Shown here one piece after another: positions 39,621-55,999 of a stretch of 64,000 nucleotides of DNA. The stretch is from Streptomonospora alba. GTDB taxonomy: Bacteria; Actinomycetota; Actinomycetes; Streptosporangiales; Streptosporangiaceae. The notes beneath the pieces were generated by a model. That model ran no database searches. It was not told the DNA's origin and saw only the letters and a program-made list of their open reading frames with translations. The position numbers and the translations under genes are program-made. How positions within the stretch are numbered: position 1 is the stretch's first letter; every line of letters begins with the position of its first letter. Location of the stretch: the NCBI RefSeq assembly GCF_000826685.1, contig NZ_JROO01000016.1, positions 1 through 64,000 on the forward strand, given 5' to 3'.

Positions 39621-39941
39621 GGGCTCCCGCTACCCGGCACGGCTGCCGCCAGACGCCGAGACCGCCGCCGTCATCGGCCTGTGCCGCCCCTGCGGGTCCC
39701 TCCGGGCGCGACGCGGAGCGCCCCGGCCTCGCCCGTCGCCCGCCCGCGGTCGGCACGCCCGCCGGAAACTACCCGAAAGGGTAACGCGGCAGGCAGCACC
39801 ATTTCCTTAGGGTTTGGACACCGACATCCGGAAATCCACCGCTCCGTAACTCCGGACCGAGGGGCCGCAACGATAAACCCGCCGGCCGGGGCGGCCTCGA
39901 CGTCGACGAGAAGCCACCAGAGGAATGAGGAAGGTGAGCCG
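39621..39941. other. Divergent region heading the catabolic island
   Basis: About 320 bases between the SDR (-) and the extradiol dioxygenase small-subunit gene (+). It holds the 17-bp operator-like motif at 39770-39786 and a probable promoter around 39807. No gene. Confidence 0.6.
39770..39786 (+). promoter_or_regulatory. Shared catabolic-island operator motif, copy 1
   Basis: TACCCGAAAGGGTAACG, with perfect arms TACCC and GGGTA around GAAA. The same motif with two changes lies upstream of the TRAP transporter gene. A -10-like TTAGGG/TAGGGT begins 20-21 bp past the motif, so it sits where a class II activator would bind over the -35. Confidence 0.6.
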
Positions 39942-40193
39942 GTGTACAGCCTCCACAAACTGCTGTGGGACATTCGCAAGGACCCGGACCTGGCCGAGCG
40001 GTACCTCGCTGATCCGGACCCCGTACTCGATTCCTACGGCATCGGAGGCGAGGACCGCGCCGCTATGCGCGAACTCGACTTCAAAACCATGTACGAGCGC
40101 GGGTTCAACCCCTATCTGATCTACTTCTGCGCCATCCAGCTGAAGGTCGACCGTGCTGACTACTATGCCCGGATACGGGGGGAGAAGAACTGA
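39942..40193 (+). CDS. Extradiol dioxygenase small (alpha, LigA-like) subunit
   Basis: The 83-residue product matches the LigA fold of class III extradiol dioxygenases: YSLHKLLWDIRKDPDLAERY, SYGIGGEDRAAMRELDFKTM and GFNPYLIYFCAIQL. LigA of protocatechuate 4,5-dioxygenase is about 139 residues, so this is a shortened form lacking the N-terminal part. It caps the active site of the catalytic subunit encoded next. GTG 39942 follows GAGGAAGG. The stop overlaps the next start (TGATG), which means coupled translation and equal amounts of both subunits. Confidence 0.88.
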   Translation: MYSLHKLLWDIRKDPDLAERYLADPDPVLDSYGIGGEDRAAMRELDFKTMYERGFNPYLIYFCAIQLKVDRADYYARIRGEKN

Positions 40194-41038
40194 TGGCTGA
40201 CACCGCAGGACGGGTCGTGGGCGCCTTTACCGCTTCGCACTCGCCCGGAATCACGGCATGGCCCGAACGCGCGGAACCCGCGAAGCGCGCGGCCGTGGAA
40301 TCCGCTTTCGCCGACGCGCGGAGCCGAATCGACGCGCTCGAACCGGACGCGATCGTCGCCGTTTCCGTGGAGCACTTCACCAATTTCCACCTGGGCAATC
40401 TGCCGGCGTTCGCCGTCGCGACGAGCGACTCGTATCTGGGGCCGGTCACCGAGGAAATGGGAGACTTCCTCAACGTGGAACAGCGCCGGTACCCCGGGCA
40501 CTCCCGGCTCGGCCGGCACCTCTACGGGTTCGCGCTGGAATCGGAGTTCGACCCCGCCCTGGTCGAAGGCGGCCTGGAGTTCGACGAGAACTTCTGCGTC
40601 CCCTTCAAGCACCTCGACCCCGAGTCGAAGTACCCCCTCGTTCCCGTCATCGTCAACGGCGTCAACCCGCCCTGGCCGACCGTGCGGCGCTGCTACGACT
40701 TCGGGCGGATGATCCGCCGCGCGATCGAGGCGCAGACCGAGGTCCAGCGCGTGGTCGTCGTCGGGACGGGCGGTCTGTCCCACTGGGTCGGGCTGCCGGA
40801 GTCGGGCCGGGTCAACACGGAGTTCGACCGCGACTTCATCGACCGCTTCGAGAGCGGTGACACGGACCGCCTCCTCTCCTACACCGCAGAGGAGATCGAC
40901 GCCGCCGGAAACGGCGCGCACGAGATCCGGACCTGGCTCGTCGCGGCCGGCTCGGTCCAGGTGCCGTTCGACGTCCTGGCCTACGAGCCGGTCCCGGAGT
41001 GGCTCACAGGCACGGCCGTCGCGGCGGCCCGGACCTGA
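40193..41038 (+). CDS. Extradiol ring-cleavage dioxygenase catalytic (beta, LigB-like) subunit
   Basis: The 281-residue product is a class III (LigB) extradiol dioxygenase that splits a catechol-type ring next to the two hydroxyls using Fe(II). His16 in FTASHSPG, His61 in VSVEHFTNFH and Glu244 in GAHEIRTW fall at the positions of the LigB iron ligands His12, His61 and Glu242. VVVVGTGGLSHWVG carries the second-shell catalytic His. It pairs with the small subunit encoded just upstream. The natural substrate is unknown; relatives act on protocatechuate, dihydroxybiphenyls and PAH diols. Confidence 0.92.
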   Translation: MADTAGRVVGAFTASHSPGITAWPERAEPAKRAAVESAFADARSRIDALEPDAIVAVSVEHFTNFHLGNLPAFAVATSDSYLGPVTEEMGDFLNVEQRRYPGHSRLGRHLYGFALESEFDPALVEGGLEFDENFCVPFKHLDPESKYPLVPVIVNGVNPPWPTVRRCYDFGRMIRRAIEAQTEVQRVVVVGTGGLSHWVGLPESGRVNTEFDRDFIDRFESGDTDRLLSYTAEEIDAAGNGAHEIRTWLVAAGSVQVPFDVLAYEPVPEWLTGTAVAAART

Positions 41039-41097
41039 ACCCGGCCGCCGACCCCCGCGAACGCTCCCGCTCAACCCCGAGAAGAAGGTAGGACCCG

Positions 41098-42144
41098 ATG
41101 AGCAGCAAACTTCCCAAGGTGACCGGTCGCGACATGCGCGGCGTGATGGCCTATCCCCCGACCCCGGCGCTTCCGGGAGCCGACCGGGTCGACGCCGAGA
41201 ACACGATCGACCTCGCGGAGACCGAGCGCATGATCCGGTCCCTGATCCGTGACGGCGTGGACGCGATCGCCACCAACGGCACCCTGGGCGAGATGCACAC
41301 GCTGACGCTGGAGGAGTGGAAGGCCTACGCCTCCTGCGTGGCCGAGACCGCACGGTCGGAGGACCCCGACTTCCCCGTCTTCGTCGGCGCCACCACCCTC
41401 AACACCCGCGACACCGTCGCGCGGATGCGGTTCCTGGCCGACATCGGCGTCACCGGGACCCTGCTGGGCCGTCCCATGTGGGGCGACATGGTCGCGCCGA
41501 TCATGGAGAGGTTCTACCGGGACGTCGCCGAGGCCGTGCCCGAGCTGGCCATCGTCGTCTACGACAACACCGCCGCCTTCGGCGGGGTCATCCCGCGCTC
41601 CGTCTACCGCACCCTCGTGGACCTGCCCCAGGTCGTGGCGGTCAAGTACGCGGGCGGCGCGTCGGTCGGCTTCCGGTACCACAACGACATGGCCCACACG
41701 GGGACCGGCTTCCCGCTGATGCCGATCGAGACCGACTGGTTCCCGGCCTGGGAGATGTACGGCGAGGAGCTCGTCGGGATGGCGTGGTCCTCGACCACCG
41801 CCATGGGGCCCGCGCCCGTCCTCGCGCTGCGCGACGCCCTGCGCGAGGGGCGCACCGAGGACGCGCGCTGGCTGACCGAGCGCCTTCGGTGGGCCCACGA
41901 GCCCTTCATCGTCGGCCAGGACTTCTTCGAGTTCGCCAAGTACAACGTCCCCCTGGAGAAGATCCGCGTGAACGCCGCCGGCTACATGAACGTCGGCAAG
42001 AGCCGGGTGCCCTACACCGAGGACCTGCTTCCCGAGGTCCACCGCACGACCACGCTCGAGCACGTCGAGCGCTACAAGCAGATCACCGCCGAGATCGACG
42101 AGCGGCTGGGCTCGGCATCGTCCCGGGCCGCCGAGAAGGTCTGA
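41098..42144 (+). CDS. Hydratase-aldolase of the NahE/PhdJ type (DapA superfamily)
   Basis: The 348-residue product is a class I aldolase of the trans-o-hydroxybenzylidenepyruvate hydratase-aldolase group. Lys183 in VVAVKYAGG is the Schiff-base lysine and Tyr155 in IVVYDNTAAF the partner tyrosine, the same numbering as in NahE. ATNGTLGEMHTLTLEEW is the group version of the pyruvate-binding loop. These enzymes add water to an aromatic-ylidene pyruvate and split it into pyruvate and an aromatic aldehyde, the step after ring cleavage in naphthalene and phenanthrene pathways. ATG 41098 follows GAAGAAGG. It lies 3 bp upstream of the ring-hydroxylating dioxygenase gene. Confidence 0.92.
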   Translation: MSSKLPKVTGRDMRGVMAYPPTPALPGADRVDAENTIDLAETERMIRSLIRDGVDAIATNGTLGEMHTLTLEEWKAYASCVAETARSEDPDFPVFVGATTLNTRDTVARMRFLADIGVTGTLLGRPMWGDMVAPIMERFYRDVAEAVPELAIVVYDNTAAFGGVIPRSVYRTLVDLPQVVAVKYAGGASVGFRYHNDMAHTGTGFPLMPIETDWFPAWEMYGEELVGMAWSSTTAMGPAPVLALRDALREGRTEDARWLTERLRWAHEPFIVGQDFFEFAKYNVPLEKIRVNAAGYMNVGKSRVPYTEDLLPEVHRTTTLEHVERYKQITAEIDERLGSASSRAAEKV

Positions 42145-42147
42145 GCC

Positions 42148-43464
42148 ATGGCGACCGACCCCGTGAGTCCCGGTGCCGAAGCGGCCCTCGAAAGCATCAG
42201 GGACGGTATCGCGAAAGGGCGTTTCCCGGCTCACGTCTTCAACGACCGGCAGATCTTCGACATCGAGCGGCAGCGGGTCTTCTCCAAGGCCTGGTGCTTC
42301 CTGGCACACGAGTCCGAGATCCCCGACCGCGGGGACTACGTCACGCGCTACATAGCCGACAACAACCTCATCGTCGCCCGCGCCGAGTCCGGGGACATCC
42401 ACGCCAGCCTCAACATGTGCCGCCACCGCGGAAACATGATGTGCAAGTCCGAGATGGGCAACGCCTCGCACTTCCGCTGCTCCTACCACGGATGGGTGTA
42501 CAAGAACTCCGGTGAGCTCGTCGGGGTGCCCTACATGAAGGAGGGCTACGAGGGCAGGATCGACAAGCGCGACTGGGGCCTGGTCAAGGTCCGGACGCAG
42601 ACCTACGCGGGCCTGGTGTTCGGCACGATCGACCCGGACGCGCCGCCGCTTGAGGAGTACCTCGGCGACTTCCGGTTCTACCTGGACCTCTACCTCAAGC
42701 AGGGAAGCTCGGGAAGCGAGGTGCACGGCCCCCCGGACCACTGGGTGACCGACACCGACTGGAAGATCGCCGCCGAGAACTTCGCCGGCGACGGGTACCA
42801 CACCCCTGTCGCCCACCAGTTCGGGTTCAACCTGGGCTACTTCGCCTCGTCGGGATCGACCCACAGCCAGGGCTGGGCCGCGAGCATCCCCGGCAAGGGG
42901 CACGGCATCGGGCTCGGCCACACTCCGGGCTTCCCGCCCTTCGCGGGGTTCCCGGAGGAACTGGCCGACGAGATGCGCCGCAGCCTGTCGCCCGAACAGG
43001 TCGAGGTCTTCTCCCAGACCCGGACCGCGGTGGGCACGGTGTTTCCCAACCTGTCCTTCTTGATGCAGCCGTTCAGCATCGTCCCGGGCGAGGCGGGCGT
43101 GCGGTTCGTGACCATGCGCCTGTACCACCCGATCGGGCCGGGCAGGACCGAGATGTACTCCTGGTGCCTGGTGCCCAAGGACGCCTCCGAGCAGTACAAA
43201 CGGGAGGCGTACCGCGCCTACACCCTGGCCTTCGCCCAGGCGGGGACCTTCGAGCAGGACGACCTGGAGAACTGGGCCCGCGTGACCCGTTCGGCCGGCT
43301 CGACCATGGCCAGGGACATCGAGTTCCCCTACGTCATGGGGATGGACAGCGTCCGCGATCCCGACTTCCCCGGCCCCGGGCACGTGGTCACGCCCTACGT
43401 CAACGACTCCAACTTCCGGAACCTGTGGTCCCGGTGGTCCGACTACATGACCGGACAGGTGTGA
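42148..43464 (+). CDS. Aromatic ring-hydroxylating dioxygenase alpha subunit
   Basis: The 438-residue product is the catalytic subunit of a Rieske non-haem iron oxygenase. The [2Fe-2S] ligands are Cys91 and His93 (CRH) and Cys111 and His114 (CSYH). The mononuclear iron site is in ENFAGDGYHTPVAHQ with His218 and His223, Asp215 as bridge, and Asp371 or Asp372 (EQDDLENW) as the likely third ligand. It would form a cis-dihydrodiol on an aromatic ring with O2. ATG 42148 starts 3 bp past the aldolase stop. Electrons probably come from the [3Fe-4S] ferredoxin and reductase encoded at 52.1-53.5 kb, as in the phenanthrene dioxygenase of Nocardioides. Confidence 0.93.
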   Translation: MATDPVSPGAEAALESIRDGIAKGRFPAHVFNDRQIFDIERQRVFSKAWCFLAHESEIPDRGDYVTRYIADNNLIVARAESGDIHASLNMCRHRGNMMCKSEMGNASHFRCSYHGWVYKNSGELVGVPYMKEGYEGRIDKRDWGLVKVRTQTYAGLVFGTIDPDAPPLEEYLGDFRFYLDLYLKQGSSGSEVHGPPDHWVTDTDWKIAAENFAGDGYHTPVAHQFGFNLGYFASSGSTHSQGWAASIPGKGHGIGLGHTPGFPPFAGFPEELADEMRRSLSPEQVEVFSQTRTAVGTVFPNLSFLMQPFSIVPGEAGVRFVTMRLYHPIGPGRTEMYSWCLVPKDASEQYKREAYRAYTLAFAQAGTFEQDDLENWARVTRSAGSTMARDIEFPYVMGMDSVRDPDFPGPGHVVTPYVNDSNFRNLWSRWSDYMTGQV

Positions 43465-43985
43465 TCGGCGTGGCAGATCCGAAGCCGGACCGGGACACGG
43501 TCTTCGACGTCACCGACTTCCTCCACCGCGAAGCCCTGGCACTGGACGAACGCAGGTTCCGGGACTGGCTCGACCACCTGACCGACGACGTCGCCTATGT
43601 CGTGCCGCTCCGCGTCACCCGGGAGGGCCAGGCCGGCTGGGAGGTCTCGCCCACGTCGCGGATCTTCGACGACGACAAGCAGACGCTCACGCTGCGGATC
43701 GAGCGGCTCGAGACGGACTTCGCCTGGGCGGAGCAACCGCCGTCACGCACGCGCCACTACGTCACCAACGTCGTGGCCGACCCGGGCGAGCGGGAGGACG
43801 AACTCCTCGTGTCGTCGAACTGCCTCATCTACCGGAGCCGGGGCGACAGCATCGAGCCGAACCTCTACTCGATCGCCCGCAAGGACACGGTCCGGCGCGT
43901 GGACGGCCGGCTCCTGCTGGCTCGGCGCTACGCGGTGCTCGACCAGTCCGTCATCAACGGGCACAACCTGTCGATCCTCTTCTGA
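43461..43985 (+). CDS. Aromatic ring-hydroxylating dioxygenase beta subunit
   Basis: The 174-residue product has the NTF2-like fold of dioxygenase beta subunits: FLHREALALDERRFRDWLDH, VAYVVPLRVTREG, RLETDFAWAEQPPSRTRHYV TNVVADPGE and LLLARRYAVLDQ, all typical. It has a structural role in the alpha3-beta3 enzyme. The GTG at 43461 overlaps the alpha stop (GTGA); GTG 43470 is an alternative start giving a product three residues shorter. Confidence 0.92.
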   Translation: MIGVADPKPDRDTVFDVTDFLHREALALDERRFRDWLDHLTDDVAYVVPLRVTREGQAGWEVSPTSRIFDDDKQTLTLRIERLETDFAWAEQPPSRTRHYVTNVVADPGEREDELLVSSNCLIYRSRGDSIEPNLYSIARKDTVRRVDGRLLLARRYAVLDQSVINGHNLSILF

Positions 43986-44006
43986 TCCGACCGAAGGAGC
44001 CCATCC

Positions 44007-44285
44007 ATGAATGAGGCCGTTCCCGTCCCGGCGGCGGAGAACCCCGACGACGGCGAGGTCCTCGCCTACCCGCGGGACGGAGGCAACGAGGGGCCCATCG
44101 TCGTCGCCAACGAGTTCGTCGACGTCGTCGTACGCAAGGTCGACACCCGCAACGGTGTGCGGCTGGAGATCTGGTCGCCCAGGCACAACACGTGCGTGCG
44201 CTTCGACGCGGTCGCGCTGGACTGCCTGAGCTATCAGGAACCGGAGTTCATCACGTCCCTGCTGGCGAGGAAGCCGGGACCGTGA
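44007..44285 (+). CDS. Small protein of the dioxygenase cluster, unrecognised
   Basis: The 92-residue product reads VVANEFVDVVVRKVDTRNGV, RLEIWSPRHNTCVRFDAVAL and DCLSYQEPEFITSLLARKPG. It has no membrane segment and only two Cys, so it is not a ferredoxin. ATG 44007 follows GAAGGAG, an excellent site, and the stop overlaps the next gene by 4 bp, so it is surely translated. Its place between the oxygenase and the diol dehydrogenase suggests an accessory or assembly subunit. I do not recognise the family. Confidence 0.8.
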   Translation: MNEAVPVPAAENPDDGEVLAYPRDGGNEGPIVVANEFVDVVVRKVDTRNGVRLEIWSPRHNTCVRFDAVALDCLSYQEPEFITSLLARKPGP

Positions 44286-45070
44286 GCGGGGGCCTGGACG
44301 GACTGAGCATGCTGGTCACCGGGGGCGGATCGGGTATCGGGCAGGCTGTCTGCAACCGCTACCTCGCCCTCGGCGCCCGGGTCACCGTGCTCGAGCGATC
44401 ACCCGAGCACGCCGACGCGCTGCGCCGCGGCGCCGGCGACCGCCTCCGGGTGGTGGTAGGCGACGCCACGGACAGCGCGGCCCTGGCCGAGGCGCTGGCC
44501 GAGGCGCGCGACGACGACGGCGGCCTCGACCACCTCACCAGCTGTGTCGGGGTGTTCGACCACTACGTGTCCATCCGCGAGCTCACCCCGGCGCAGCTGG
44601 AATCGGCGGGCGAGGAGATGTGGCACACCAACGTCCTCAGCTGCTTGAAGGCGGTCAACGTGTGCTACGAGGCTCTGAGCGCGGCCCGCGGCTCGGTGAC
44701 GCTGACCCTGTCGGAGTCGGCGTTTCACCCCCGCGGCGGCGGCGTACTCTACGGCAGTTCGAAGTGGGCGCTCCGCGGGGCCGTGGACCACCTCTCGGCC
44801 GACCTCGCGCCGCGGGTCCGGGTCAACGGCGTCGCACCGGGCGGAACCGGTGGCACACGCTTCGGCGGGTTGGCGTCGCTGGGCCAGACGCTGACCGCCG
44901 ACCGGTCCGAGGGGCGCGACGAACGCCTCGCCCGCAGCAACGTCCTCGGGGTCACTCCGCGGCCGGAGGACCACAGCGGCGCCTACGCCTATCTCGCCGA
45001 TCCGGGCGCCGCCCGGATCGTCACCGGGATCGTCATCAACACCGACGCCGGGAGTGGGACATGGACGTGA
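44282..45070 (+). CDS. SDR, probable cis-dihydrodiol dehydrogenase
   Basis: The 262-residue product is a short-chain dehydrogenase: SMLVTGGGSGIGQAVCNRYL (cofactor loop), VTVLERSPEHADAL (acidic residue fits NAD preference), SCVGVFDHY, TLTLSESAFHPRGGGVLYGS SKWAL (catalytic Ser and YxxxK) and VNGVAPGGTGGTRFGGLASL. The last segment resembles the cis-dihydrodiol dehydrogenases of biphenyl and naphthalene pathways (BphB/NahB type). It would re-aromatise the product of the oxygenase to a catechol. GTG 44282 overlaps the previous stop. Confidence 0.88.
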   Translation: MSGGLDGLSMLVTGGGSGIGQAVCNRYLALGARVTVLERSPEHADALRRGAGDRLRVVVGDATDSAALAEALAEARDDDGGLDHLTSCVGVFDHYVSIRELTPAQLESAGEEMWHTNVLSCLKAVNVCYEALSAARGSVTLTLSESAFHPRGGGVLYGSSKWALRGAVDHLSADLAPRVRVNGVAPGGTGGTRFGGLASLGQTLTADRSEGRDERLARSNVLGVTPRPEDHSGAYAYLADPGAARIVTGIVINTDAGSGTWT

Positions 45071-46704
45071 CCGGAAGCGCCCCCGACGGGGCCCAGGCGG
45101 TCGGGGCGACGCTCGCCGCCTGCGGGATCGACACCGTCTTCGGGGTCGTGGGCAGCGGCAACTTCGTCGCCACCGACGCGCTCGTCCGCGGCGGGGCGCG
45201 CTTCGTCGGCGCCCGCCACGAAGCCGGCGCCCTGGCCATGGCCGACGCCCACTGGCGGACCACGGGGCGCATCGCCGCCTGCAGCGTCCACCAGGGACCG
45301 GGCCTGACCAACACCGTCACGGCACTCGCGGAGGCCGCCAAGAGCCGAAGCCCGATCGTGGTCCTCGCGGGGGCGACGTCGGCCGGTATGACCCGCTCCA
45401 ACTTCTACCTCGACCAGGCGGCGCTGGTCACCGCCGCGGGAGGGATCGCCGAGCACCTCCACCGACCCGGCACCGTCGCCGCCGACACGGTCCGCGCCTG
45501 CCGCCGGGCGCTCGACGAGCACCGTCCCGTCGTGCTCAACATGCCGCTGGACGTGCAGGCCTCCACCGCCACCGCACCCCCCGACGGGGTCTCGATCCTG
45601 CGACCGGGGGGACGTCCTCGGCCGGCGGCCGATGTCGTGGCCGAGCTGGCCCAGGAGCTGCTCCGTGCCCGCCGTCCCGTGCTCCTCGCCGGCCGCGGCG
45701 CGTGGCTGTCGGGAGCCCGGGACTCCACCGCCGCGCTCGCCGAGAGAATCGGGGCCCGCCTCGCGACCACCGCGGTCGTCAAGGGGATGTTCACCGGACA
45801 TCCCCGAGACGTCGGCATCGCGGGAGGGTTCTCCACCTCCACCGCGGTGGAGACCCTGGAGTCCGCCGACCTGATCCTCGCGCTGGGAGCCACGCTCACG
45901 ACGTGGACGACGCGCGACGACACGATCTTCCGCGAGAAGACCGCGGTGGTCCACGTCGACTGGGACCCCACCGCACTGGGCCGCAACGCCCACGTCGGCG
46001 TCGGCATCGCCGCCGACGTCGACGCCACGGTGCGCGCTCTGCTGACCGAGGTCGGCGACCGCCGATCCACGAGCGAGTTCGGCCCCCTGGAGCGTTCGGC
46101 CGCCCCCACCGTGCCCCCGCCTTCGGCCGAGGGCACATGCCATCCCGCCGACATCACCGCCCGATTGGAGGAGTTGCTGCCCGCCGAGCGCTCCGTCGTG
46201 GTGGACGGCGGCCACTTCATCGGCTGGCCGGCGATGGGCTGGTCCGTGCCCGACCCCGCCGGCTTCGTCTTCACCAGCGCGGGGTTCCAGTCGATCGGGC
46301 TGGGCCTGGGCGCGGCCGTGGGTGCGGCCGTCGCCAGGCCCGACCGGCTCACCGTCCTGGCCACCGGCGACGGCGGGTTCCTCATGGCGGTCTCCGAACT
46401 CGAAACCCTCGTCCGCCTGAACCTGGACGCCCTTGTCGTGGTCTACGACGACCGGGCCTACGGCGCCGAGGTCCACCACTTCCTCCACTACGGCTCGGGG
46501 CTGGACCTCGTGCGGTTCCCCCAGACCGACATCGCGGGTCTCGCCCGGGGCGCCGGTGCGCGGGCGGTCACCGTCCGGGACCGCTCCGACCTCGCCCAGG
46601 CCGCCGACTGGTTCGCCGAACCCAGCGGCGTGCTCGTCCTCGACGTCCGAATCGATCCGACCGTGGTCGGGCCCTGGGCCGAACAGGACTTCGCCGGGCA
46701 CTGA
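45061..46704 (+). CDS. Thiamine-diphosphate-dependent enzyme
   Basis: The 547-residue product has the three domains of the acetolactate-synthase/benzoylformate-decarboxylase superfamily. Glu54 (ARHEAGALAMAD) is the conserved cofactor-activating glutamate. The ThDP/Mg motif starts at Gly436-Asp437-Gly438 (ATGDGGFLMAVSELETL) and continues to VVVYDDRAYGAEVHHF, where YDD replaces the more common NN. It may decarboxylate or carboligate a 2-oxo acid produced by the pathway. Its start overlaps the SDR stop by 10 bp. The exact reaction cannot be read from sequence. Confidence 0.88.
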   Translation: MDVTGSAPDGAQAVGATLAACGIDTVFGVVGSGNFVATDALVRGGARFVGARHEAGALAMADAHWRTTGRIAACSVHQGPGLTNTVTALAEAAKSRSPIVVLAGATSAGMTRSNFYLDQAALVTAAGGIAEHLHRPGTVAADTVRACRRALDEHRPVVLNMPLDVQASTATAPPDGVSILRPGGRPRPAADVVAELAQELLRARRPVLLAGRGAWLSGARDSTAALAERIGARLATTAVVKGMFTGHPRDVGIAGGFSTSTAVETLESADLILALGATLTTWTTRDDTIFREKTAVVHVDWDPTALGRNAHVGVGIAADVDATVRALLTEVGDRRSTSEFGPLERSAAPTVPPPSAEGTCHPADITARLEELLPAERSVVVDGGHFIGWPAMGWSVPDPAGFVFTSAGFQSIGLGLGAAVGAAVARPDRLTVLATGDGGFLMAVSELETLVRLNLDALVVVYDDRAYGAEVHHFLHYGSGLDLVRFPQTDIAGLARGAGARAVTVRDRSDLAQAADWFAEPSGVLVLDVRIDPTVVGPWAEQDFAGH

Positions 46705-47124
46705 CCCCACCGCCTGCCCGCCCCGGATCGACGGGCGGCGGGCCCTGAAGCCGACCGGTGCCCGGCGCACCCGGCCACCACTGCGGGCGCGACCGCAGCA
46801 GGCGCCCGATCCACAGCGACGCCCGCCTTCCTCGTACCGGAAGCGGGCCGGTACGCGCTCCCGTTCGAGCGGCCCCGCGGAGGTAGCCGGGGCCGACGCC
46901 CCCACCGCCGCCGCGCCGCGCCGGCGGCCCCCGCCGCGCCGGGGACCCGTTCCCGTCGCCGAGTACCGGCCGGTGATTCCGGCCGCACTTTGTACCCGAA
47001 CGGGTCACGACCAGCAACTGAGCAATGAGTAATGTCCCTGCACACGCTCGCTGCGGACCCGGGAACCGCCACCGCTTCCCGCTCACTCCCGCCGCTTGTC
47101 GCTAACCAAGACCTGGAGATCGAG
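46705..47124. other. Intergenic region before the TRAP transporter
   Basis: About 420 bases. The first 280 show nothing definite. The last 130 contain the shared operator motif at 46993-47009 and a TAATGT -10-like word at 47030-47035. No gene. Confidence 0.6.
46993..47009 (+). promoter_or_regulatory. Shared catabolic-island operator motif, copy 2
   Basis: TACCCGAACGGGTCACG matches copy 1 (39770-39786) at 15 of 17 positions. A TAATGT -10-like word starts exactly 20 bp past it. The core ACCCG-AA-CGGGT is an inverted repeat. Confidence 0.6.
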
Positions 47125-50046: not shown

Positions 50047-50264
50047 GCCCGCGGTCCCCTACACCCGAGCCGGGGCGGCGGAGCGTCCGCCGCCCCCGGC
50101 TCCCGCACGCCCTCAGCATGCCCTCGTGGCGCCGCCTGCCGCAGGTCCCGGATCTACCCGACCGGGTGATGCCGGCGGGGGCCGAAGCCGCCGTAGCGTC
50201 GCCACCAATCGCAGGAGCCGGTCCTGACGAACCCGGCGAACACCATGGAGAAGGAGGAGGGCCC

Positions 50265-50852
50265 GTGGCCGACTCGCCGCTTGAGGTCCGCAAGACCTTC
50301 GCACAGGCCGAGACGATCCGCTCGTCGGCAGGCAGATCGGACGGGGAGGAACTGCGCAAGGTCGCCGTCTGCGCGGTCGTCCGCAACCCCTACGCGGGGC
50401 GGGGCTACGTCGACGACCTTTCCGGAATCATCGACGCCTCCGACGAACTGGGACGCTCCCTGGGGCTTGAGGCCGTCCGCCTCCTCGGGCAGCCGGTGGA
50501 GAGCTACGGCAAGGGCGGCCTCGTGGGCTCGGACGGCGAGCAGGAGCACGTCAACGCCGCTCTGACCGCGGTCTTCGGCGACGCCTTCCGTGCGGCCGTC
50601 GGAGGCGGGAAGGCCTGGATCACGTCCATGACCAAGCCCGCGGTCGCCGGCGAGGTCATCGACGTGCCCACCGCCTACAAGGACGACATCTGGGTGCGCA
50701 GCCACTACGACGGCGTGACGATCCGCGTTCCCGACGCGCCCCGCCCTGAGGAGCTCGTCGTCATCGGCGTGGTGACCAACCGCGGCCGACTCAACGCGCG
50801 GGTCGGCGGCAGAAGCGTCGCCGAGGCCCGCGAGAAGGGCGGAAAGCAGTGA
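50265..50852 (+). CDS. PF06684 (amino-acid-synthesis/DUF1185) family protein
   Basis: The 195-residue product matches the PF06684 family: KVAVCAVVRNPYAGRGYVDD, YGKGGLVGSDGEQEHVNAAL and GGKAWITSMTKPAVAGEVID VPTAYKDD. The family was named for a putative amino-acid role but its biochemistry is not established; members recur in catabolic operons with amidohydrolases and TRAP or ABC transporters. GTG 50265 follows AAGGAGGAGG, a very strong site. Its stop overlaps the amidohydrolase start, so the two probably act together. Confidence 0.85.
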   Translation: MADSPLEVRKTFAQAETIRSSAGRSDGEELRKVAVCAVVRNPYAGRGYVDDLSGIIDASDELGRSLGLEAVRLLGQPVESYGKGGLVGSDGEQEHVNAALTAVFGDAFRAAVGGGKAWITSMTKPAVAGEVIDVPTAYKDDIWVRSHYDGVTIRVPDAPRPEELVVIGVVTNRGRLNARVGGRSVAEAREKGGKQ

Positions 50853-52048
50853 ACACGCTCGCCGTCACCGGGGCCGGCACGGTCTTCTCGGGCGACATCG
50901 AAGCGCCCGTCGTCGAGGGCGCGGACACCGTCATCGTCACCGACGGCACGATCAGCGACGTCGGCGACGCTCAGGAGCTGAGGGCCGCGATCGCCGGCGC
51001 CGACACCGTCGTGGACGCCCGGGGCTCGACCGTCGCGCCGGGACTCGTCGACTCCCACTGCCACGTGGTGCTCGGCGACTACACGCCGAGGCAGAAGACC
51101 GTCGACTTCCTCGCCAGCTACGTCCACGGCGGGATCACCAGCGTCGTGAGCCCCGGAGAGATCCACGCTCCGGGCCGGCCCAGCACCGCGGTCGGGGTGA
51201 AGTCGCTGGCCATCGCCGCCCGTTCGTGTTTCGAGAACTTCCATCCCGGCGGGATGACCGTCCACGCCGGTTCCGTGGTGCTGGAGCCGACGCTCCGAGA
51301 GCGCGACTTCGCCGATCTCCAGGAGGCCGGTGTCGTCCTGGCGAAGTTCGGCTTCGGGCGCTACACCGACCCCGCCGAGGGGGTCGACCAGGTCAGGTGG
51401 GCCCAGCAGCACGGCATCACGGTGATGTGCCACTCCGGCGGAGCGAGCATCCCGGGCAGCAAACCGATCACACCCGAGCACCTGCTGGCGCTGGCACCGG
51501 ACGTCTGCGGCCACATCAACGGCGGCCCGACGTCGCTGGATCCCGCCGGGGTCGACACGATCATGGACGAGACCGGGATGGCGCTCCAACTGGTCCAGGC
51601 CGGCAACCTCAGCTCGTCCGTGCGCATCCTCGAGCGTGCGGTGCGGCAGGGCGCCCTGCACCGGATCGTCATCGGCTCGGACACGCCCACCGGCACCGGA
51701 GTCATGCCCCTGGGAGTGATCAAGACCGTCGCCGAACTCGCGTCGCTGACCGGACTCGATCCCGCGCTGGTGTGGGCGGCCGCCTCGGGCAACAACGCCC
51801 GGACGTGGAGCCTTCCGGCCGGCCTGGTCACGCCGGGCCGAGCGGGCGATCTCGTGGTCATGGACGCGCCGTGGGGATCGACCCGTGAGAGCGCGCGCGC
51901 GGCGCTCGCCGTCGGCGACATCCCCGGAATCTCCGCGGTCGTCACCGCGGGCCGCGTTCGCGCCTTGAAAAGCCGGAACACACCCGCTTCCGCACGCAGC
52001 GCACACGCCGAGCCGCCGATCCCCCACCTGGAGTCGAGCGCTCACTGA
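50849..52048 (+). CDS. Amidohydrolase (enamidase/dihydroorotase-like)
   Basis: The 399-residue product has the metal-dependent amidohydrolase fold. The first metal motif is VDSHCHVV with His70 and His72; VMCHSGGASIPGS, GHINGGPT and VIGSDTP (His, His and the final Asp) supply further ligands. It resembles enamidase and other cyclic-amide hydrolases, which open lactam or ene-amide rings. GTG 50849 overlaps the PF06684 stop (GTGA). Its presence hints that a C-N bond is cut in the pathway, but other amidohydrolase reactions are possible. Confidence 0.85.
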   Translation: MNTLAVTGAGTVFSGDIEAPVVEGADTVIVTDGTISDVGDAQELRAAIAGADTVVDARGSTVAPGLVDSHCHVVLGDYTPRQKTVDFLASYVHGGITSVVSPGEIHAPGRPSTAVGVKSLAIAARSCFENFHPGGMTVHAGSVVLEPTLRERDFADLQEAGVVLAKFGFGRYTDPAEGVDQVRWAQQHGITVMCHSGGASIPGSKPITPEHLLALAPDVCGHINGGPTSLDPAGVDTIMDETGMALQLVQAGNLSSSVRILERAVRQGALHRIVIGSDTPTGTGVMPLGVIKTVAELASLTGLDPALVWAAASGNNARTWSLPAGLVTPGRAGDLVVMDAPWGSTRESARAALAVGDIPGISAVVTAGRVRALKSRNTPASARSAHAEPPIPHLESSAH

Positions 52049-52079
52049 GTCTCGAAGGACGTCACGGAGGTGACAGGAC

Positions 52080-52283
52080 ATGGGAATGAAGCTGGTCCTC
52101 GACCTGGACGCGTGCCAGGGGTACGCGAACTGCCTGATCGAGAGCCCCGGACTGTTCGACCTTGACGATCGAACCGACAAGGCCGTGCTGCTGGACGAGA
52201 CCCCCGCGGAGGACCGTCGTGCCGAGGCCGAAGCGGCGGTACGCGGATGCCCCGCACGCGCGATCTCCCTCGAGAGTTCCTGA
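52080..52283 (+). CDS. [3Fe-4S] ferredoxin
   Basis: The 67-residue product has LDACQGYANC with Cys12 and Cys18 (CX5C) and the third ligand in RGCPARAISL. This is the [3Fe-4S] type with the middle cysteine missing, as used by actinobacterial P450s and by ring-hydroxylating dioxygenases such as phenanthrene dioxygenase of Nocardioides and dibenzofuran dioxygenase of Terrabacter. It should carry electrons from the reductase encoded next to the Rieske oxygenase at 42.1-44.0 kb. ATG 52080 follows GGAGG; ATG 52086 is an alternative. Confidence 0.92.
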   Translation: MGMKLVLDLDACQGYANCLIESPGLFDLDDRTDKAVLLDETPAEDRRAEAEAAVRGCPARAISLESS

Positions 52284-52284
52284 C

Positions 52285-53478
52285 GTGCGGCGAATCGCCG
52301 TCGTCGGCGGGTCGCTGGCCGGGGTCCACGCCGCTGAGGCGCTGCGGGAGCACGGCTTCGACGGCGACGTCACGCTCATCTCGGCGGAGAACGAACTGCC
52401 CTACGACAGGCCGCCCCTGTCCAAGGAAGCGCTGCTCAACGGCATGCCGATGGAGAGGCTGAGCCTTCGCGCGCCCGAGTGGTACGAGGACAACGCCGTT
52501 ACGACCCGACTCGGCAACGCCGCCGTTCGGCTCGACACCGCGCGGCGCACGGTCCTGCTCGACGACGGCACGACCGTGGCCTACGACGGCCTCGTCATCG
52601 CCACGGGTTCGCGGGCGCGGCGCCTGTCCAGTACGGAGAACGCCCCGCCCGTGCAGATCCTGCGGTCGATCGAGGACAGTCTGCGGCTTCGCGAGCGCCT
52701 GCGCCCCGGCCAGCACCTCGTTCTCATCGGCGCCGGGTTCATCGGGCTGGAGATCGCCGCGACCGCCCGGCAGTTGGGTCTGGACGTGACGATCGTCGAG
52801 GTCGGGCGGGTTCCGCTGGGCCGTGCGCTGGGCGACGAGGTCGGCGCCTGGTTCCGCGCGCTGCACGCACGCAACGGGGTCGAGATCGTCTGCACGTGCA
52901 CTGTGGAGGCGATCGAGCGCCTGGGCGAGGGCGCTGTGCTGACCCTGAGCAACGGGCGCGTCTTCAACGCCGACGTCGTCGTCGCCGGGATCGGGGCGAG
53001 CCCGGTCACCGAATGGCTCGACGGAAGCGGCGTCCAGACGACCGACGGGGTGGTCTGCCGCTCCGACCTGTCGACCTCCGTGCCAGGCGTGGCGGCGGCC
53101 GGGGACGTCGCGCGCTGGTACAACCCGCTGTTCGACGAGGAGATCCGCGTCGAGCACTGGACGAACGCCGTCGAGCAGGGCAGACGCGCCGCGCACACCC
53201 TGCTGGGCCACGGGGAGGCGTTCAGCGCGGTCCCCTACTTCTGGACCGACCAGTACGACGCCCGTATGCGCTTCGTGGGACGCGCGTCCGCGGCGAGCGA
53301 AGTCGTCGTCAAGGAGTCCGGCGACGACAGGCTCGTGGCGCTGTACGGACGTGACGACCGGATACGGGGCGCGGTGTGCGTCAACGCGCCCAGAGAACTC
53401 GTCCGCTACCGCACCGCGATCCGCGACCAGGTCCGCTGGGGCGACGTCACGGAGACCCCCTCGGCCATCGGCGGCTGA
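52285..53478 (+). CDS. Ferredoxin reductase (glutathione-reductase-type FAD protein)
   Basis: The 397-residue product has two nucleotide-binding motifs: IAVVGGSLAGVHAAEALREH (FAD) at the start and LVLIGAGFIGLEIAATARQL (NADH) near 145. Further marks are ISAENELPYDRPPLSKEALL, YDGLVIATGSRARRL and VPGVAAAGDVARWYNPLFDE. This is the BphA4/ThcD type of reductase with a C-terminal dimerisation domain. It passes electrons from NADH to the ferredoxin. GTG 52285 starts 1 bp past the ferredoxin stop. Confidence 0.93.
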   Translation: MRRIAVVGGSLAGVHAAEALREHGFDGDVTLISAENELPYDRPPLSKEALLNGMPMERLSLRAPEWYEDNAVTTRLGNAAVRLDTARRTVLLDDGTTVAYDGLVIATGSRARRLSSTENAPPVQILRSIEDSLRLRERLRPGQHLVLIGAGFIGLEIAATARQLGLDVTIVEVGRVPLGRALGDEVGAWFRALHARNGVEIVCTCTVEAIERLGEGAVLTLSNGRVFNADVVVAGIGASPVTEWLDGSGVQTTDGVVCRSDLSTSVPGVAAAGDVARWYNPLFDEEIRVEHWTNAVEQGRRAAHTLLGHGEAFSAVPYFWTDQYDARMRFVGRASAASEVVVKESGDDRLVALYGRDDRIRGAVCVNAPRELVRYRTAIRDQVRWGDVTETPSAIGG

Positions 53479-53531
53479 GGCCCCACTCACCTTCCCAGAA
53501 CACTCTTCGCCAACGACCACAAGGAGTAGAC

Positions 53532-54677
53532 GTGACCGAAACCGAGACCACGCTCCAGGGCGACGCCCTGTCCGTCATCGAGTTGTTCCCCCAGCACGAG
53601 GACTGGTCGCTGCAGACGATGCGCCTGCTCGCCCAGGTCGCGGTCGGGGGCTCCGACCTGTTCGAGTGCGCGCGCACCGCCGCCCGCATCGGTGCCCGGA
53701 CCACCGACCCCGAGGTGTGGCAGCGCGAGTGGAGCCGGACCGCCAAGGAGACCGCGGAGGCCGGCCACGCCGCCCTGGAAGCGGGCAACGTCACGACGGG
53801 CCGCCGCGCCCTGTTCCGGTCGATGAGCTACTGGCGGCACTCCGAGTTCTTCCTTCCCCCCACGGACCCGCGCCGGAACGAGGCCTACACCGAGGGAACG
53901 CGGAACTTCCAGAAGGCGGCGGAGCTCACCGGCGGGCTCATCGAGCGGATCAGCGTCCCCTTCGAGGGCCAGACGATGGACGGTTACGTCGTCCGCCCCG
54001 ACGCCTCGGGCCAGAAGCGTCCCACGGTGCTCATGCTCGGCGGCGCCGACTCCTGGGCCGAGGAGCTGTACTTCCTGGGCGGCACCGAGTTCCCGGCCCG
54101 CGGAATGAACGTCGTCATGGTCGACACGCCCGGTCGCGGCAGTTCCCTGCGCTTCAAGCAGATGTACAGCCGCCATGACTACGAGGTCCCGGTGAAGGCC
54201 GTCCTCGACTTCCTGGCGCAGCGCGACGACGTCGACATGGACCGGCTCGGCCTGGCCGGAGTCAGTTTCGGCGGGTACTACGCGCCGCGCGCGGCGGCCT
54301 TCGAGCCGCGGGTCAAGGCCGTGGCGGCGTGGTGCGGCACGTGGAGCATCCTGACGGACTTCTACGAGTACTACCCGCCGCTGCAGCAGCAGCTCCAGTG
54401 GCTGTCGGGTTCGAAGGACGACGCCGACGCCCGCGAGAAGCTCGCCCGGTTCACCCTCGACGGCGTCGCCGAGAAGCTCGACATCCCCGTGTATGTCATG
54501 CACGGCGAGAACGACATCATCATGGACATCGAGGGGGCGCGCCGTTTCGAGGCGGCGCTGAGTGTCGAGGACGTGACCGTCGACTATTACGGCGGAGCGG
54601 GCTCGCTGCACTGCAACTACGACTACCTGGCGGTGGCCGCCGCAAGGCTGGCCGACTGGATGCTGCACAGAATCTGA
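53532..54677 (+). CDS. Alpha/beta hydrolase, C-C hydrolase-like (FrsA/DHPON hydrolase group)
   Basis: The 381-residue product has a helical N-terminal region of about 125 residues and then an alpha/beta-hydrolase domain. The probable triad is Ser245 (AGVSFGGYY), Asp328 (HGENDIIMD) and His360 (GSLHCNY). The layout resembles 2,6-dihydroxypseudooxynicotine hydrolase, an enzyme that breaks a C-C bond in nicotine degradation. It may cleave the ring-fission product or a side chain here. GTG 53532 follows AAGGAG. A terminator follows the stop, marking the end of the catabolic genes. Confidence 0.88.
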   Translation: MTETETTLQGDALSVIELFPQHEDWSLQTMRLLAQVAVGGSDLFECARTAARIGARTTDPEVWQREWSRTAKETAEAGHAALEAGNVTTGRRALFRSMSYWRHSEFFLPPTDPRRNEAYTEGTRNFQKAAELTGGLIERISVPFEGQTMDGYVVRPDASGQKRPTVLMLGGADSWAEELYFLGGTEFPARGMNVVMVDTPGRGSSLRFKQMYSRHDYEVPVKAVLDFLAQRDDVDMDRLGLAGVSFGGYYAPRAAAFEPRVKAVAAWCGTWSILTDFYEYYPPLQQQLQWLSGSKDDADAREKLARFTLDGVAEKLDIPVYVMHGENDIIMDIEGARRFEAALSVEDVTVDYYGGAGSLHCNYDYLAVAAARLADWMLHRI

Positions 54678-54712
54678 GTACCCGATTAACGGCGGCGGCG
54701 CCCGATGTCGCC

Positions 54713-54743
54713 GATCGCGGGCGGGAGCCTCCCGCCCGCGATC
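54713..54743. terminator. Hairpin ending the catabolic genes
   Basis: GATCGCGGGCGGGA (54713-54726) pairs exactly with TCCCGCCCGCGATC (54730-54743) around GCC, 36 bp past the hydrolase stop. Confidence 0.85.
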
Positions 54744-54826
54744 CCCTGCACCTTCGGAGAAGCAGGGTTATTCCCCGGTCCGGCATGCGCTGTGCGTAAC
54801 CGGACAAGAGTAATGTGCAGTTAACA

Positions 54827-54846
54827 TTCGTTTTCGAAACGTTAGC
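54827..54846. promoter_or_regulatory. Possible operator upstream of the LuxR-type regulator gene
   Basis: An A/T-rich island reading CATTCGTTTTCGAAACGTTA contains CGTTT and AAACG arms around TCG. It lies about 70 bp upstream of the regulator start and near -10-like TAATGT and TTAACA words. It could be its promoter or an autoregulatory site. Confidence 0.35.
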
Positions 54847-54916
54847 GTTCACTGCTCCGGGCCGGGTTACCATCTGGCCAGGAGATCCTAGCGGTCGGCA
54901 AATTGGGGGTGGTTCG

Positions 54917-55999
54917 GTGGGTGCGAAAGTCGACCTCGCGAACAACGGTTTCTTTAAATTCGCCCGCGAACTCAATCAGACGCAGACGGTCGATGAGGTC
55001 CGGGACGTCTACTTCGGGACCGTAGCCGAAGTACTGCCTGCCGACGGCATCGGTTTCTACCGTTTCACCGACGACATGAATCCGGTCCTGGAGCGGGCCT
55101 CGACCCTCAGCGACTTCTTCATGCACACGTATGAGGAGCAGGGGCGCCGCGACGACCCCGTGCTGGAGGCGGTTCTCGAATACGGCCTTCCCGCCGACTC
55201 CCATATGATGCTGAGCCCGTCGCGATGGCACTCCTCCGCCGCGAAGTCGGTGCTGCTCAGCGAGGGGCTCGCCTACTCCATGGAAGCACCCATCATCGAA
55301 TCGGGAAGTGTGGTCGGCACCGTCAACTTCGCCCGCGCGACCGATGGGCGGCCTTTCCACGAAGAGGACTTGAGCCTGGCGCGACTGATCAGCGAACACC
55401 TCAGTCTGGCGATCGAACGCGCCCGGAGGCTGGACGCACTGGGGGATCAGGCCACTCTGGTCCAGGGAGTGCTCGACCATTTCCCGCACGGCGTCGTCGT
55501 CAGCGACCTCAACGGGAAAAGGCTGTTCTCCAACCGGAACGCGAAACGCGTCATGGGATGCCTGGACCGGGCAGCGGGAAATTCCCGGTCCGCGACCCTC
55601 GAAGACCTCGTCGACAGTGTCGTTTCGGAATTCGCCGAGGACGGCCGGCAGACCGGAACGACAAGTGTGCGCGACGGCGCCTCGGGACGGAAGATCATCG
55701 TTCGGTCCTACCGTAAACACGGAAAGGAGTCGATCGTCAGCCTGCTGTACGAATGCGCCGACGAGCAGTCCTCAGAACTTCCGGTATGGGGCGTGCTTTC
55801 CCCTCGGGAGCAGGAGATAGCCACGCTCGTGAGCCAGGGGCACACCACCAAGGAGATCGCCCAGAAAGCATTCGTCAGTGAGAACACCGTGAAACAGCAC
55901 CTTAAACGGATCTTCGCCAAGACCAATGTGCACAACCGGGCGGAACTCGTCCAACTCATCTGGTCGTCCCGCGACCGGGAGGCGGTTCCCGGGCGGTAG
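54917..55999 (+). CDS. GAF-PAS-LuxR transcriptional regulator of the island
   Basis: The 360-residue product has a GAF-like sensor at about residues 10-150 (MEAPIIESGSVVGTVNFARA is its typical end), a PAS-like middle at about 170-270 (LDHFPHGVVVSDLNGKRLFS NRNAKRVM) and a LuxR/NarL HTH at about 290-350 (LSPREQEIATLVSQGHTTKE, IAQKAFVSENTVKQHLKRIF). It is probably a ligand-sensing activator. It follows the hydrolase gene after a terminator, so it has its own promoter. GTG 54917 follows GGGGGTGG. It is the only regulator next to the island and the best candidate to bind the shared 17-bp motifs. Confidence 0.9.
   Translation: MGAKVDLANNGFFKFARELNQTQTVDEVRDVYFGTVAEVLPADGIGFYRFTDDMNPVLERASTLSDFFMHTYEEQGRRDDPVLEAVLEYGLPADSHMMLSPSRWHSSAAKSVLLSEGLAYSMEAPIIESGSVVGTVNFARATDGRPFHEEDLSLARLISEHLSLAIERARRLDALGDQATLVQGVLDHFPHGVVVSDLNGKRLFSNRNAKRVMGCLDRAAGNSRSATLEDLVDSVVSEFAEDGRQTGTTSVRDGASGRKIIVRSYRKHGKESIVSLLYECADEQSSELPVWGVLSPREQEIATLVSQGHTTKEIAQKAFVSENTVKQHLKRIFAKTNVHNRAELVQLIWSSRDREAVPGR

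Follow-up and report, generated by a model that had tools for sequence, protein, structure and literature searches.

Gene content of the cluster

Which compound is consumed with the help of a large aromatic catabolic gene cluster in Streptomonospora alba? The cluster lies in the window, by which we mean the whole 64,000-nucleotide stretch of DNA analysed, and comprises 17 co-directional genes spanning 39942–55999, all on the + strand. The first-pass annotation had counted fifteen, its own list giving 16 names and lacking a conserved 92-aa ORF; every gene family that it named was found, on the + strand, and an operator-like palindrome starts at precisely the base, 39770, that it had set as the left edge. 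Its view that the island is self-contained, carrying an importer, an electron chain and a regulator of its own, is supported, and is strengthened by the presence of this palindrome before three gene blocks. As argued below from homology and gene linkage, the cluster is probably a regulon dedicated to one pathway, allowing growth on a benzo-fused N-heteroaromatic carboxylate; the likeliest substrate is kynurenate (4-hydroxyquinoline-2-carboxylate) or a quinolone acid close to it.

The TRAP transporter is complete, with Pfam matches for the solute-binding protein DctP (47125–48186; PF03480, E 2e-31; a second in-frame start lies at 47032), the small permease DctQ (48183–48692; PF04290, E 4.5e-16) and the large permease DctM (48754–50046; PF06808, E 3.3e-83). 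The electron chain consists of a ferredoxin with three cysteines, a count that fits a [3Fe-4S] cluster (52080–52283), and a reductase resembling HcaD/AndAa, with model scores below the cut-offs (52285–53478). A ThDP-dependent enzyme resembling acetolactate synthases and decarboxylases (45061–46704) appears to be accessory and did not appear in the parts that were read of loci L002, L004, L007, L051, L053 and L054; it does not fit clearly into the scheme proposed here.

Downstream of the cluster, an aldehyde dehydrogenase gene (56257–57753, + strand; PF00171) was considered as a core member and rejected, as its product is only about 31–33% identical to the aldehyde dehydrogenases of L002, L003, L004 and L008 and no palindrome precedes it. 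A close homologue (81–82%) follows the regulator gene in genomes G396 and G400, and the gene is possibly a genus-level accessory.

Conservation of the core

The same gene order recurs in other actinomycetes, where the first-pass annotation had suggested looking for it. A seven-gene core, ligA-ligB-aldolase-Rieske alpha-beta-92-aa ORF-SDR, is kept in 16 of the 19 clusters compared, all 16 from actinobacteria of several families, and this recurrence indicates that the cluster is more than a chance assembly. The order is broken in L006, which starts at a contig edge and retains only a fragment of the beta gene before CoxL, in L081, which is rearranged and carries insertion sequences, and in L082 (Thermomicrobium), which lacks LigAB. 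Loci L010–L019, with Rieske matches of 30–40% and no core, were left out of all cluster counts; the T. roseum and Rhodococcus sp. USK13 sequences come from plasmid records and are outside the 17 genomes discussed below. When 249 genomes from the family of G459 were surveyed, none matched at E 1e-150, which is a weak negative because G459 itself failed there, its gene being read in three pieces.

A shared palindrome and the regulator

The palindrome TACCC-N4-GGGT stands before three gene blocks on the + strand: upstream of ligA as TACCCGAAAGGGTAACG (39770–39786), upstream of the TRAP genes (46993–47009), and upstream of the PF06684 gene (50155–50171), where it has one mismatch to the extended pattern. 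The sequence TACCCGAAAGGGTAACG is nearly invariant across the window and four relatives, and three blocks are likewise preceded by the palindrome in G396, G400 and G423. The extended pattern has two sites in the whole 5.9 Mb genome, both in the cluster, and its reversed control none. Since the window and its four nearest relatives served to define the pattern before it was counted, the counts in these genomes are not an independent test. Over 15 genomes, TACCC-N4-GGGTMAC gave 19 sites versus 6 for the reversed control: all sites fall inside the cluster in G000, G396, G400, G423, G452 and G454, the sites lie outside the cluster stretches read in five genomes (G413, G450, G456, G458 and G226), and the remaining four (G023, G453, G455 and G459) have none.

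Of the 19 clusters, 12, of both the C-C hydrolase and the molybdenum types described below, have the palindrome in front of one or more core cluster genes, and it lies between a homologous regulator gene and dctP in L005, L009 and L070; the parts that were read of L002, L004, L006, L007 and L082 contain no site. A scan for sigma-70 promoters returned no sites. The gene set thus placed behind a common palindrome is apparently co-regulated, and the GAF-LuxR regulator encoded at the end of the cluster (54815–55999; GerE, E 1.7e-17, and GAF) is presumed to read this operator and would switch on the gene blocks through it.

Proposed hydroxylation and cleavage of a fused ring

The first genes encode the two subunits of an extradiol dioxygenase, LigA (small subunit, 39942–40193; PF07746, E 2.4e-10) and the catalytic LigB (40193–41038; PF02900, E 2.4e-35), in which H16, H61, H197 and E244 are invariant in a 17-row alignment. 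They are followed by a PhdJ/NahE-type hydratase-aldolase of the DHDPS family (41098–42144; PhdJ 6dan, E 1.5e-70), about 50% identical to DHDPS-family proteins on Rhodococcus plasmids, whose Schiff-base lysine K183 and Y155 are invariant in 19 rows. The nearest solved structure to the Rieske ring-hydroxylating dioxygenase alpha subunit (42148–43464) is a naphthalene dioxygenase (2b1x, E 1.4e-121), and both the CXH...CXXH cluster ligands (C91/H93/C111/H114) and the 2-His-1-Asp site (H218/H223/D371/D372) are invariant in 18 rows. The beta subunit (43470–43985; PF00866, E 1.3e-36) is followed by the 92-aa ORF (44007–44285), which has no Pfam match, is 54–85% identical in 8 relatives and gave a poor AlphaFold model (pLDDT 61.9), and by an SDR of the cis-dihydrodiol dehydrogenase type (44282–45070), which scores highest, though under cut-off throughout, against NCBIfam models of dihydrodiol dehydrogenases (PRK06200, HcaB, BphB).

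A PhdJ/NahE-type aldolase together with a naphthalene-type dioxygenase points to a fused bicyclic substrate. The Rieske alpha and beta subunits, SDR, extradiol enzyme and hydratase-aldolase are common to this cluster and to the actinobacterial upper pathway for naphthalene and phenanthrene (NarAaAb, NahE/PhdJ). However, the extradiol enzyme usual in that pathway is of the VOC type, which is found in T. roseum, whereas the cluster has LigAB; it also differs in that an N-ring module comes next and that many of the clusters include a TRAP importer.

Two candidate enzymes for one proposed step

The alpha/beta C-C hydrolase (53532–54677), a candidate deformylase, is nearest to 2,6-dihydroxypseudooxynicotine (DHPON) hydrolase of nicotine catabolism (2jbw, E 3.5e-26; the alignment covers 280 of 381 residues). 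DHPON hydrolase cuts the bond joining a dihydroxypyridine to its acyl group. The two proteins share alpha/beta hydrolase homology and an aligned, conserved nucleophile serine, S245 here, which is invariant in 12 rows; the leaving group proposed for the cluster enzyme is formate, unlike that of DHPON hydrolase.

Orthologues of the C-C hydrolase (at least 67% identity) are present in 11 of 17 genomes, and orthologues of the molybdenum hydroxylase subunit CoxL (at least 57%) in the other six, with no genome having both or neither. The queries came one from each group, the C-C hydrolase from G000 and CoxL from G458, and the identity gaps that define orthologues were chosen post hoc (at least 67% versus at most 39%, and at least 57% versus at most 47%); the CoxL orthologue of G457 is an 80% match over residues 376–739 only. 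On trees, two or three changes suffice for the exchange and well-supported branches force only one, so the 17 genomes are not 17 independent cases. This all-or-none exchange suggests that the C-C hydrolase and the molybdenum hydroxylase are alternative means of removing the same ring formyl group.

A somewhat unlikely alternative is that the molybdenum hydroxylase acts first, on the N-ring rather than on an aldehyde, with another quinoline or isoquinoline acid (quinaldate, 4-quinolone-3-carboxylate and others) as the substrate, as in the conversion of quinaldate to kynurenate. Molybdenum hydroxylases commonly hydroxylate beside a ring nitrogen, and CoxL is encoded directly after the SDR gene in L005, L007, L009, L052, L054 and L082. 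Such a role would nevertheless leave unexplained why the C-C hydrolase orthologue is absent from all six molybdenum-type genomes. The best models for CoxL are the glyceraldehyde dehydrogenase alpha subunit and CO dehydrogenase, both under cut-off, and a CMD-family protein adjoins CoxS in two of these six genomes (L069 and L070), which also argues against it.

An enamidase homologue and its PF06684 neighbour

The gene that the first-pass annotation listed as an amidohydrolase (50849–52048) encodes a binuclear-metal homologue of enamidase, matching 2VUN over residues 5–385 of 399 (365 bits, E 3e-108). Enamidase (EC 3.5.2.18) is the ring opener of nicotinate catabolism. The binuclear metal ligands of the family, which we take to be HxH, H, H and D with a bridging Glu or Lys, are kept: H70, H72, H195, H222 and D278 are invariant in 23 of 23 rows, and position 166 is Lys in 21 rows and Glu in the other 2. 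The homologue was found at E 1e-40 or better in 15 of the 17 cluster-bearing genomes, including those where it is distant (G226) or on a separate contig (G413), and not in G457 and G460; in this connection, L006 starts at a contig edge and L009 is from a MAG. Counting clusters or their genomes, the homologue is present in 17 of 19, and in 16 of these 17 the PF06684 gene lies next to it.

The PF06684 protein (DUF1185, 'amino acid synthesis'; 50265–50852) therefore has the enamidase homologue as its regular neighbour. Elsewhere, on two Sulfitobacter plasmids and one from Comamonadaceae, more distant enamidase homologues have paired PF06684 genes and an annotated 6-hydroxynicotinate reductase nearby. 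The reductive nicotinate pathway (2VUN; Eubacterium barkeri) thus has the same metal ligands, except for Lys instead of Glu at position 166 here, and the PF06684 neighbourhood resembles that of the proteobacterial plasmid clusters; in contrast, no 6-hydroxynicotinate reductase is found among the 17 genes, and the pyridone would arise here from a bicyclic ring by oxygenation. With regard to the PF06684 fold, the model (pLDDT 74) gave clear matches only to two DUF1185 structures (Z 19.6 and 17.9, also with Foldseek), the two solved structures of the family, both labelled uncharacterised. A Rid-like deaminase is not supported, as Rid-family, chorismate mutase and chorismatase chains reached only Z 5.6–7.3, which may mean a shared arrangement only, and neither is a ring-opening hydrolase, cyanuric acid hydrolase not being among the 50 matches listed.

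Proposed route and candidate substrates

Gene families, gene order, catalytic residues, palindrome placement and the all-or-none exchange are features of the sequence itself, and the route built on them is proposed from homology and gene linkage. The acid would be imported by the TRAP transporter, and the Rieske dioxygenase, with ferredoxin and reductase, would form a cis-dihydrodiol on the carbocycle, which the SDR would convert to a catechol. LigAB would cut this beside the ring fusion, on the N side, giving a pyridone with an oxo-propenyl chain, from which the hydratase-aldolase would release pyruvate and a ring aldehyde. The C-C hydrolase of the window would then take the formyl group off as formate, whereas in the sister clusters the molybdenum hydroxylase would oxidise it to a carboxylate that the CMD-family protein could remove. 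Finally, the enamidase homologue, with PF06684, would hydrolyse the dihydroxypyridine lactam that is left, releasing ammonia; in the case of kynurenate, this step would lead from 4,6-dihydroxypicolinate to 2,4-dioxoadipate.

The earlier suggestion of an aromatic, maybe N-containing, carboxylate is supported by inference, since the amidohydrolase is homologous to enamidase and DHPON hydrolase is the closest match to the C-C hydrolase. Kynurenate, a widespread tryptophan product, appears to be the best fit because its 7,8-dihydroxylation is old biochemistry (the kynurenate 7,8-dioxygenase pathway of Pseudomonas) for which no gene was found. That pathway, reportedly studied by Horibata in 1961, has the same order of chemistry, with cis-dihydrodiol formation, dihydrodiol dehydrogenation and extradiol cleavage at the ring fusion, and its three enzyme classes are present here, a match at the level of class only; its later steps are side-chain reduction and decarboxylation, whereas aldol cleavage is proposed for the cluster. 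To our knowledge, the route is so far known only as old biochemistry, and the three opening enzymes of bacterial kynurenate catabolism are listed without sequences. No genes or reference sequences for kynurenate or quinaldate degradation were found in the open-access literature searched, and no neighbouring gene names kynurenate or tryptophan. The known substrate of enamidase is a non-aromatic cyclic enamide with a hydrogen on the enamine carbon; 4,6-dihydroxypicolinate carries a carboxyl group there and would need its keto tautomer for the reaction. A lactam derived from an indole acid or from 4-quinolone-3-carboxylate would therefore fit equally.

An indole acid (indole-3-acetate or indole-3-carboxylate) handled by the same architecture is unlikely. 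It would undergo 6,7-dihydroxylation, C7-C7a cleavage, aldol cleavage and deformylation to a five-membered pyrrolinone, which the enamidase homologue would open to a formyl-dicarboxylate and ammonia; this pyrrolinone would resemble the known substrate of enamidase in being a cyclic enamide whose enamine carbon bears hydrogen. Side modules could supply an arylacetate: the aldehyde dehydrogenase of L003, with a palindrome 61 bp upstream, and an amino-acid permease and a class-III aminotransferase in L002 and L004. In Rhodococcus sp. USK13, a gene annotated as phenylacetaldoxime dehydratase has an operator-like site 136 bp upstream of it. However, we know of no biochemical precedent for bacterial benzo-ring 6,7-dihydroxylation of indole acids, whereas kynurenate 7,8-dihydroxylation has one, the nearest match to the C-C hydrolase is an enzyme of dihydroxypyridines, and the open-access literature search gave no matching cluster.

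It is still less probable that the pathway starts from a bicyclic acid free of nitrogen, resembling a naphthoate or a chromone, and that the enamidase homologue hydrolyses something else. The upper genes are of the naphthalene and phenanthrene type, and Burkholderia pyrrocinia has PF06684 in an aromatic-looking cluster with no enamidase homologue beside it; against this stand the recurrence of the enamidase homologue with its PF06684 neighbour and its full set of metal ligands. Furthermore, no salicylate, gentisate or catechol lower-pathway gene was recognised among the 17 genes, nor a salicylaldehyde dehydrogenase in 39942–55999, the class of the aldehyde dehydrogenase at 56257 being unassigned. 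An O2-dependent ring opening is very improbable: KpiC of 4-hydroxypyridine catabolism, an amidohydrolase-family protein 28% identical to enamidase, is reported as a 3,4-dihydroxypyridine dioxygenase and not a hydrolase (PMC7356986), but in a comparison made with enamidase the protein of the window aligns along almost its entire length and retains the hydrolase metal ligands.

Implications

The first-pass annotation knew of no described pathway with this combination of genes, which is consistent with the open-access literature searched, where searches for the combination and for enamidase or nicotinate clusters gave no described cluster. With kynurenate or a close quinolone acid as the preferred substrate, we tentatively propose, as a claim that may well not hold, that the cluster is the first genetic locus of kynurenate catabolism in bacteria, with two interchangeable formyl removals, by hydrolytic deformylation or by molybdenum-dependent oxidation and decarboxylation. 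The PF06684 family gains a concrete context from the cluster, and the natural swap between C-C hydrolase and molybdenum hydroxylase predicts the intermediate on which both would act. If the proposal is true, naphthalene-style ring stripping and nicotinate-style ring opening would be joined in one regulon, and the kynurenate catabolic route would have genes to test.

Gene content and conservation of the cluster

The cluster comprises 17 genes, all on the + strand (39942-55999 in the window), and 12 of the 16 junctions between them are overlapping or shorter than 65 bp. In order, and according to Pfam, the genes encode LigA, LigB, a DHDPS-type aldolase, the Rieske alpha and beta subunits, a 92-aa ORF without a Pfam match (44007-44285), an SDR, a ThDP enzyme, the TRAP proteins DctP, DctQ and DctM, a PF06684 protein, an Amidohydro_1 protein, a ferredoxin, a ferredoxin reductase, an FrsA-like alpha/beta hydrolase and a GAF-LuxR regulator. 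Wider intergenic gaps lie upstream of ligA, dctP (420 bp, to the start used), the PF06684 gene (218 bp) and the regulator gene (137 bp), and an aldehyde dehydrogenase (ALDH) gene begins downstream of the cluster, at 56257.

A genome-contig scan with the Rieske alpha subunit returned 19 relatives, nine of which (71-85% identical) lie in such a cluster and ten of which (loci L010-L019) do not. Whole-genome searches added the clusters of genomes G423, G396, G400, G023, G450, G413 and G226, and a plasmid collection added those of Rhodococcus sp. USK13 (L081) and Thermomicrobium roseum (L082), giving 19 clusters including that of the window. The first-pass annotation had described a self-contained catabolic island, and the same gene order does recur in other actinomycetes: ligA-ligB-aldolase-alpha-beta-92-aa ORF-SDR is kept in 16 of the 19 clusters, all of them actinobacterial. 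Among the other three, L006 starts at a contig edge, within the aldolase gene, and retains just a fragment of the beta gene ahead of that for the Mo hydroxylase CoxL; the USK13 cluster is rearranged and lies among insertion sequences; and the megaplasmid of T. roseum, a member of another phylum, carries instead of LigAB a VOC catechol-2,3-dioxygenase-type extradiol enzyme (1790-2686) adjoining the ThDP gene, together with an AMP-binding protein and two crotonases. Homologues of the 92-aa ORF (33-90% identity) occur in 18 of the 19 clusters, none being seen in L006. In Salinibacterium sp. PAMC 21357 (L008, 10001-11309), the Rieske alpha gene is in three pieces, through frameshifts or assembly errors.

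The cluster is a rare trait. In an even draw of the phylum, a Rieske alpha match of at least 65% was found in three of 396 genomes (G000, G023 and G226) and one with an E-value of 1e-100 or better in 16; among 60 relatives, seven have a match of at least 65%, the window's own genome counted.

Enzymes proposed for a fused ring and an N-heterocycle

The nearest matches of the Rieske alpha subunit are naphthalene dioxygenase (2b1x, E 1.4e-121) and also phthalate 3,4-dioxygenase, and that of the aldolase is PhdJ. Active-site residues, whose roles are presumed here, are unchanged over 17 to 19 alignment rows (12 rows for the C-C hydrolase discussed below). The product of the amidohydrolase gene matches the enamidase 2VUN (E 3e-108), the next match reaching only 1e-4; H70, H72, H195, H222 and D278 are kept in all 23 homologues, of which 21 have Lys and two have Glu at position 166. 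Naphthalene-type dioxygenases and PhdJ-type aldolases act on fused rings, so that, when the enamidase homologue is also considered, the substrate class is most naturally read as a benzo-fused N-heterocycle. Ring cleavage on the nitrogen side of the fusion would yield a lactam, a bond type that an enamidase might hydrolyse.

The enamidase homologue is present in 15 of the 17 cluster-bearing genomes, and the search found none in G457 and G460. In G226, it lies at 4.99 Mb and the dioxygenase gene at 0.79 Mb; in G413, it is on another contig. A PF06684 gene is its neighbour in 16 of the 17 clusters having one (15 genomes and two plasmids), the two being about 23 kb apart in USK13. Two Sulfitobacter plasmids and one Comamonadaceae plasmid carry enamidase homologues (39-41% identical) in whose neighbourhood (L087 10001-15106, L092 3427-10167 and L095 9001-14865) are two PF06684 genes, one for UPF0280 and one annotated as 6-hydroxynicotinate reductase, and the PF06684-amidohydrolase pair recurs in different settings in Mariluticola, Agrobacterium vitis, Mesorhizobium and Shinella. 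On account of these contexts, the pair is read as a putative N-heterocycle ring-opening module. To judge by the three plasmid loci, PF06684 may have gone unnoticed as a component of nicotinate-type catabolism. In Burkholderia pyrrocinia (L094, 4902-13984), PF06684 has no adjoining enamidase homologue; annotations there include acetolactate synthase, VOC, alpha/beta hydrolase, MhpA-like hydroxylase and SSADH.

Two alternative sets of enzymes

Type A clusters contain the alpha/beta hydrolase, a C-C hydrolase whose nearest match is DHPON hydrolase, and type B clusters contain CoxL. The CoxL gene lies downstream of the SDR gene in L005, L007, L009, L052, L054 and L082; CoxS, CoxM and a crotonase are found in L007, L054, L069 and L070; of the stretches read, only those of L069 and L070 show a CMD-family protein. 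In T. roseum, CoxL is accompanied by the two crotonases, and no CoxS, CoxM or CMD protein was seen in the stretch read. Genome-wide, with queries from G000 (C-C hydrolase) and G458 (CoxL), both among the 17 genomes searched, 11 have an orthologue of the C-C hydrolase, the other six one of CoxL, and none has both. On the dioxygenase tree the labels require three changes, and on the aldolase and enamidase trees two each; only one change is imposed by branches with good support. The type A genome G413 is placed apart from the main group of its type. The exchange therefore amounts to a few events and not 17.

The aldolase would leave a formyl group on the ring, to be removed by either the C-C hydrolase set or the Mo set, and formyl removal is the simplest reaction by which the two sets would be interchangeable. 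Alternatively, the Mo enzyme may hydroxylate a different starting compound.

A palindrome upstream of cluster genes

Upstream sequences from the window and four relatives, when aligned, showed a near-invariant palindrome ahead of ligA and a similar one ahead of dctP. TACCC-N4-GGGT occurs at 39770 (both strands), 46993 and 50155, a total of four hits in 64 kb where 0.24 would be expected, and the only two occurrences of TACCCGNNNGGGTNACG in the 5.9 Mb genome are in the cluster (control, 0). When 28 cluster-derived sequences were scanned, 15 contained the palindrome, with 29 sites in all. For 26 of these sites, a gene matching a cluster protein (ligA, CoxG, dctP, PF06684, cch, an ALDH or a regulator) starts within 240 bp; in L051, the sole such gene is a 28% match to a regulator, outside the core. 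Of the remaining three sites, two fall within cluster genes, and the third, in L081, is followed by no cluster gene. Within the stretches read, 12 of the 19 clusters have the palindrome at core genes, and none was found in L002, L004, L006, L007 and L082; in L005, L009 and L070, it lies between a divergent regulator and dctP. Large regulator genes (about 1050 aa), AfsR/BTAD-looking by sequence impression, lie near the cluster in L051 (15001-18165), L069 (7456-10593) and L070 (3458-6628), adjoining the reductase gene in the latter two.

The stricter TACCC-N4-GGGTMAC has 19 sites in 15 genomes, against six for the reversed control. All sites are in the cluster in six genomes (G000, G396, G400, G423, G452 and G454) and outside the stretches read in five (G413, G450, G456, G458 and G226), and the genome scan found none in the other four; the putative regulon thus stands out clearly in the lineage of the window and less clearly in other genomes. 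The GAF-LuxR protein is the putative binder.

Substrate and overall reading

It is fairly probable that the cluster strips a benzo-fused N-heteroaromatic acid in the manner of naphthalene, removes the formyl group and opens the nitrogen ring by means of the enamidase homologue. Kynurenate is tentatively put first as the substrate: its three opening steps have reportedly been characterised biochemically in Pseudomonas (one such paper dating from 1961), no genes for them were found in the literature searched, and the scheme for it ends in plain products. An indole acid is possible, as enamidase chemistry suits such compounds equally and an accessory aminotransferase, ALDH and annotated aldoxime dehydratase might supply an arylacetate. 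One ALDH subfamily (members 55-79% identical to each other) accompanies the cluster in four loci (L003 4118-5596, with a palindrome 61 bp upstream; L002 2785-4239; L004 about 4030-5488; L008 17528-18985), and an operator-like palindrome in USK13 (L081, 12099-12112), 136 bp before an annotated phenylacetaldoxime dehydratase gene (10893-11963), hints at an aldoxime or nitrile precursor. Another quinoline acid is also possible.

The cluster is real, conserved and apparently co-regulated, built from known enzyme families and, as far as searched, undescribed. Its interest lies in the prediction of one specific intermediate and of a substrate class, both within reach of a few assays.
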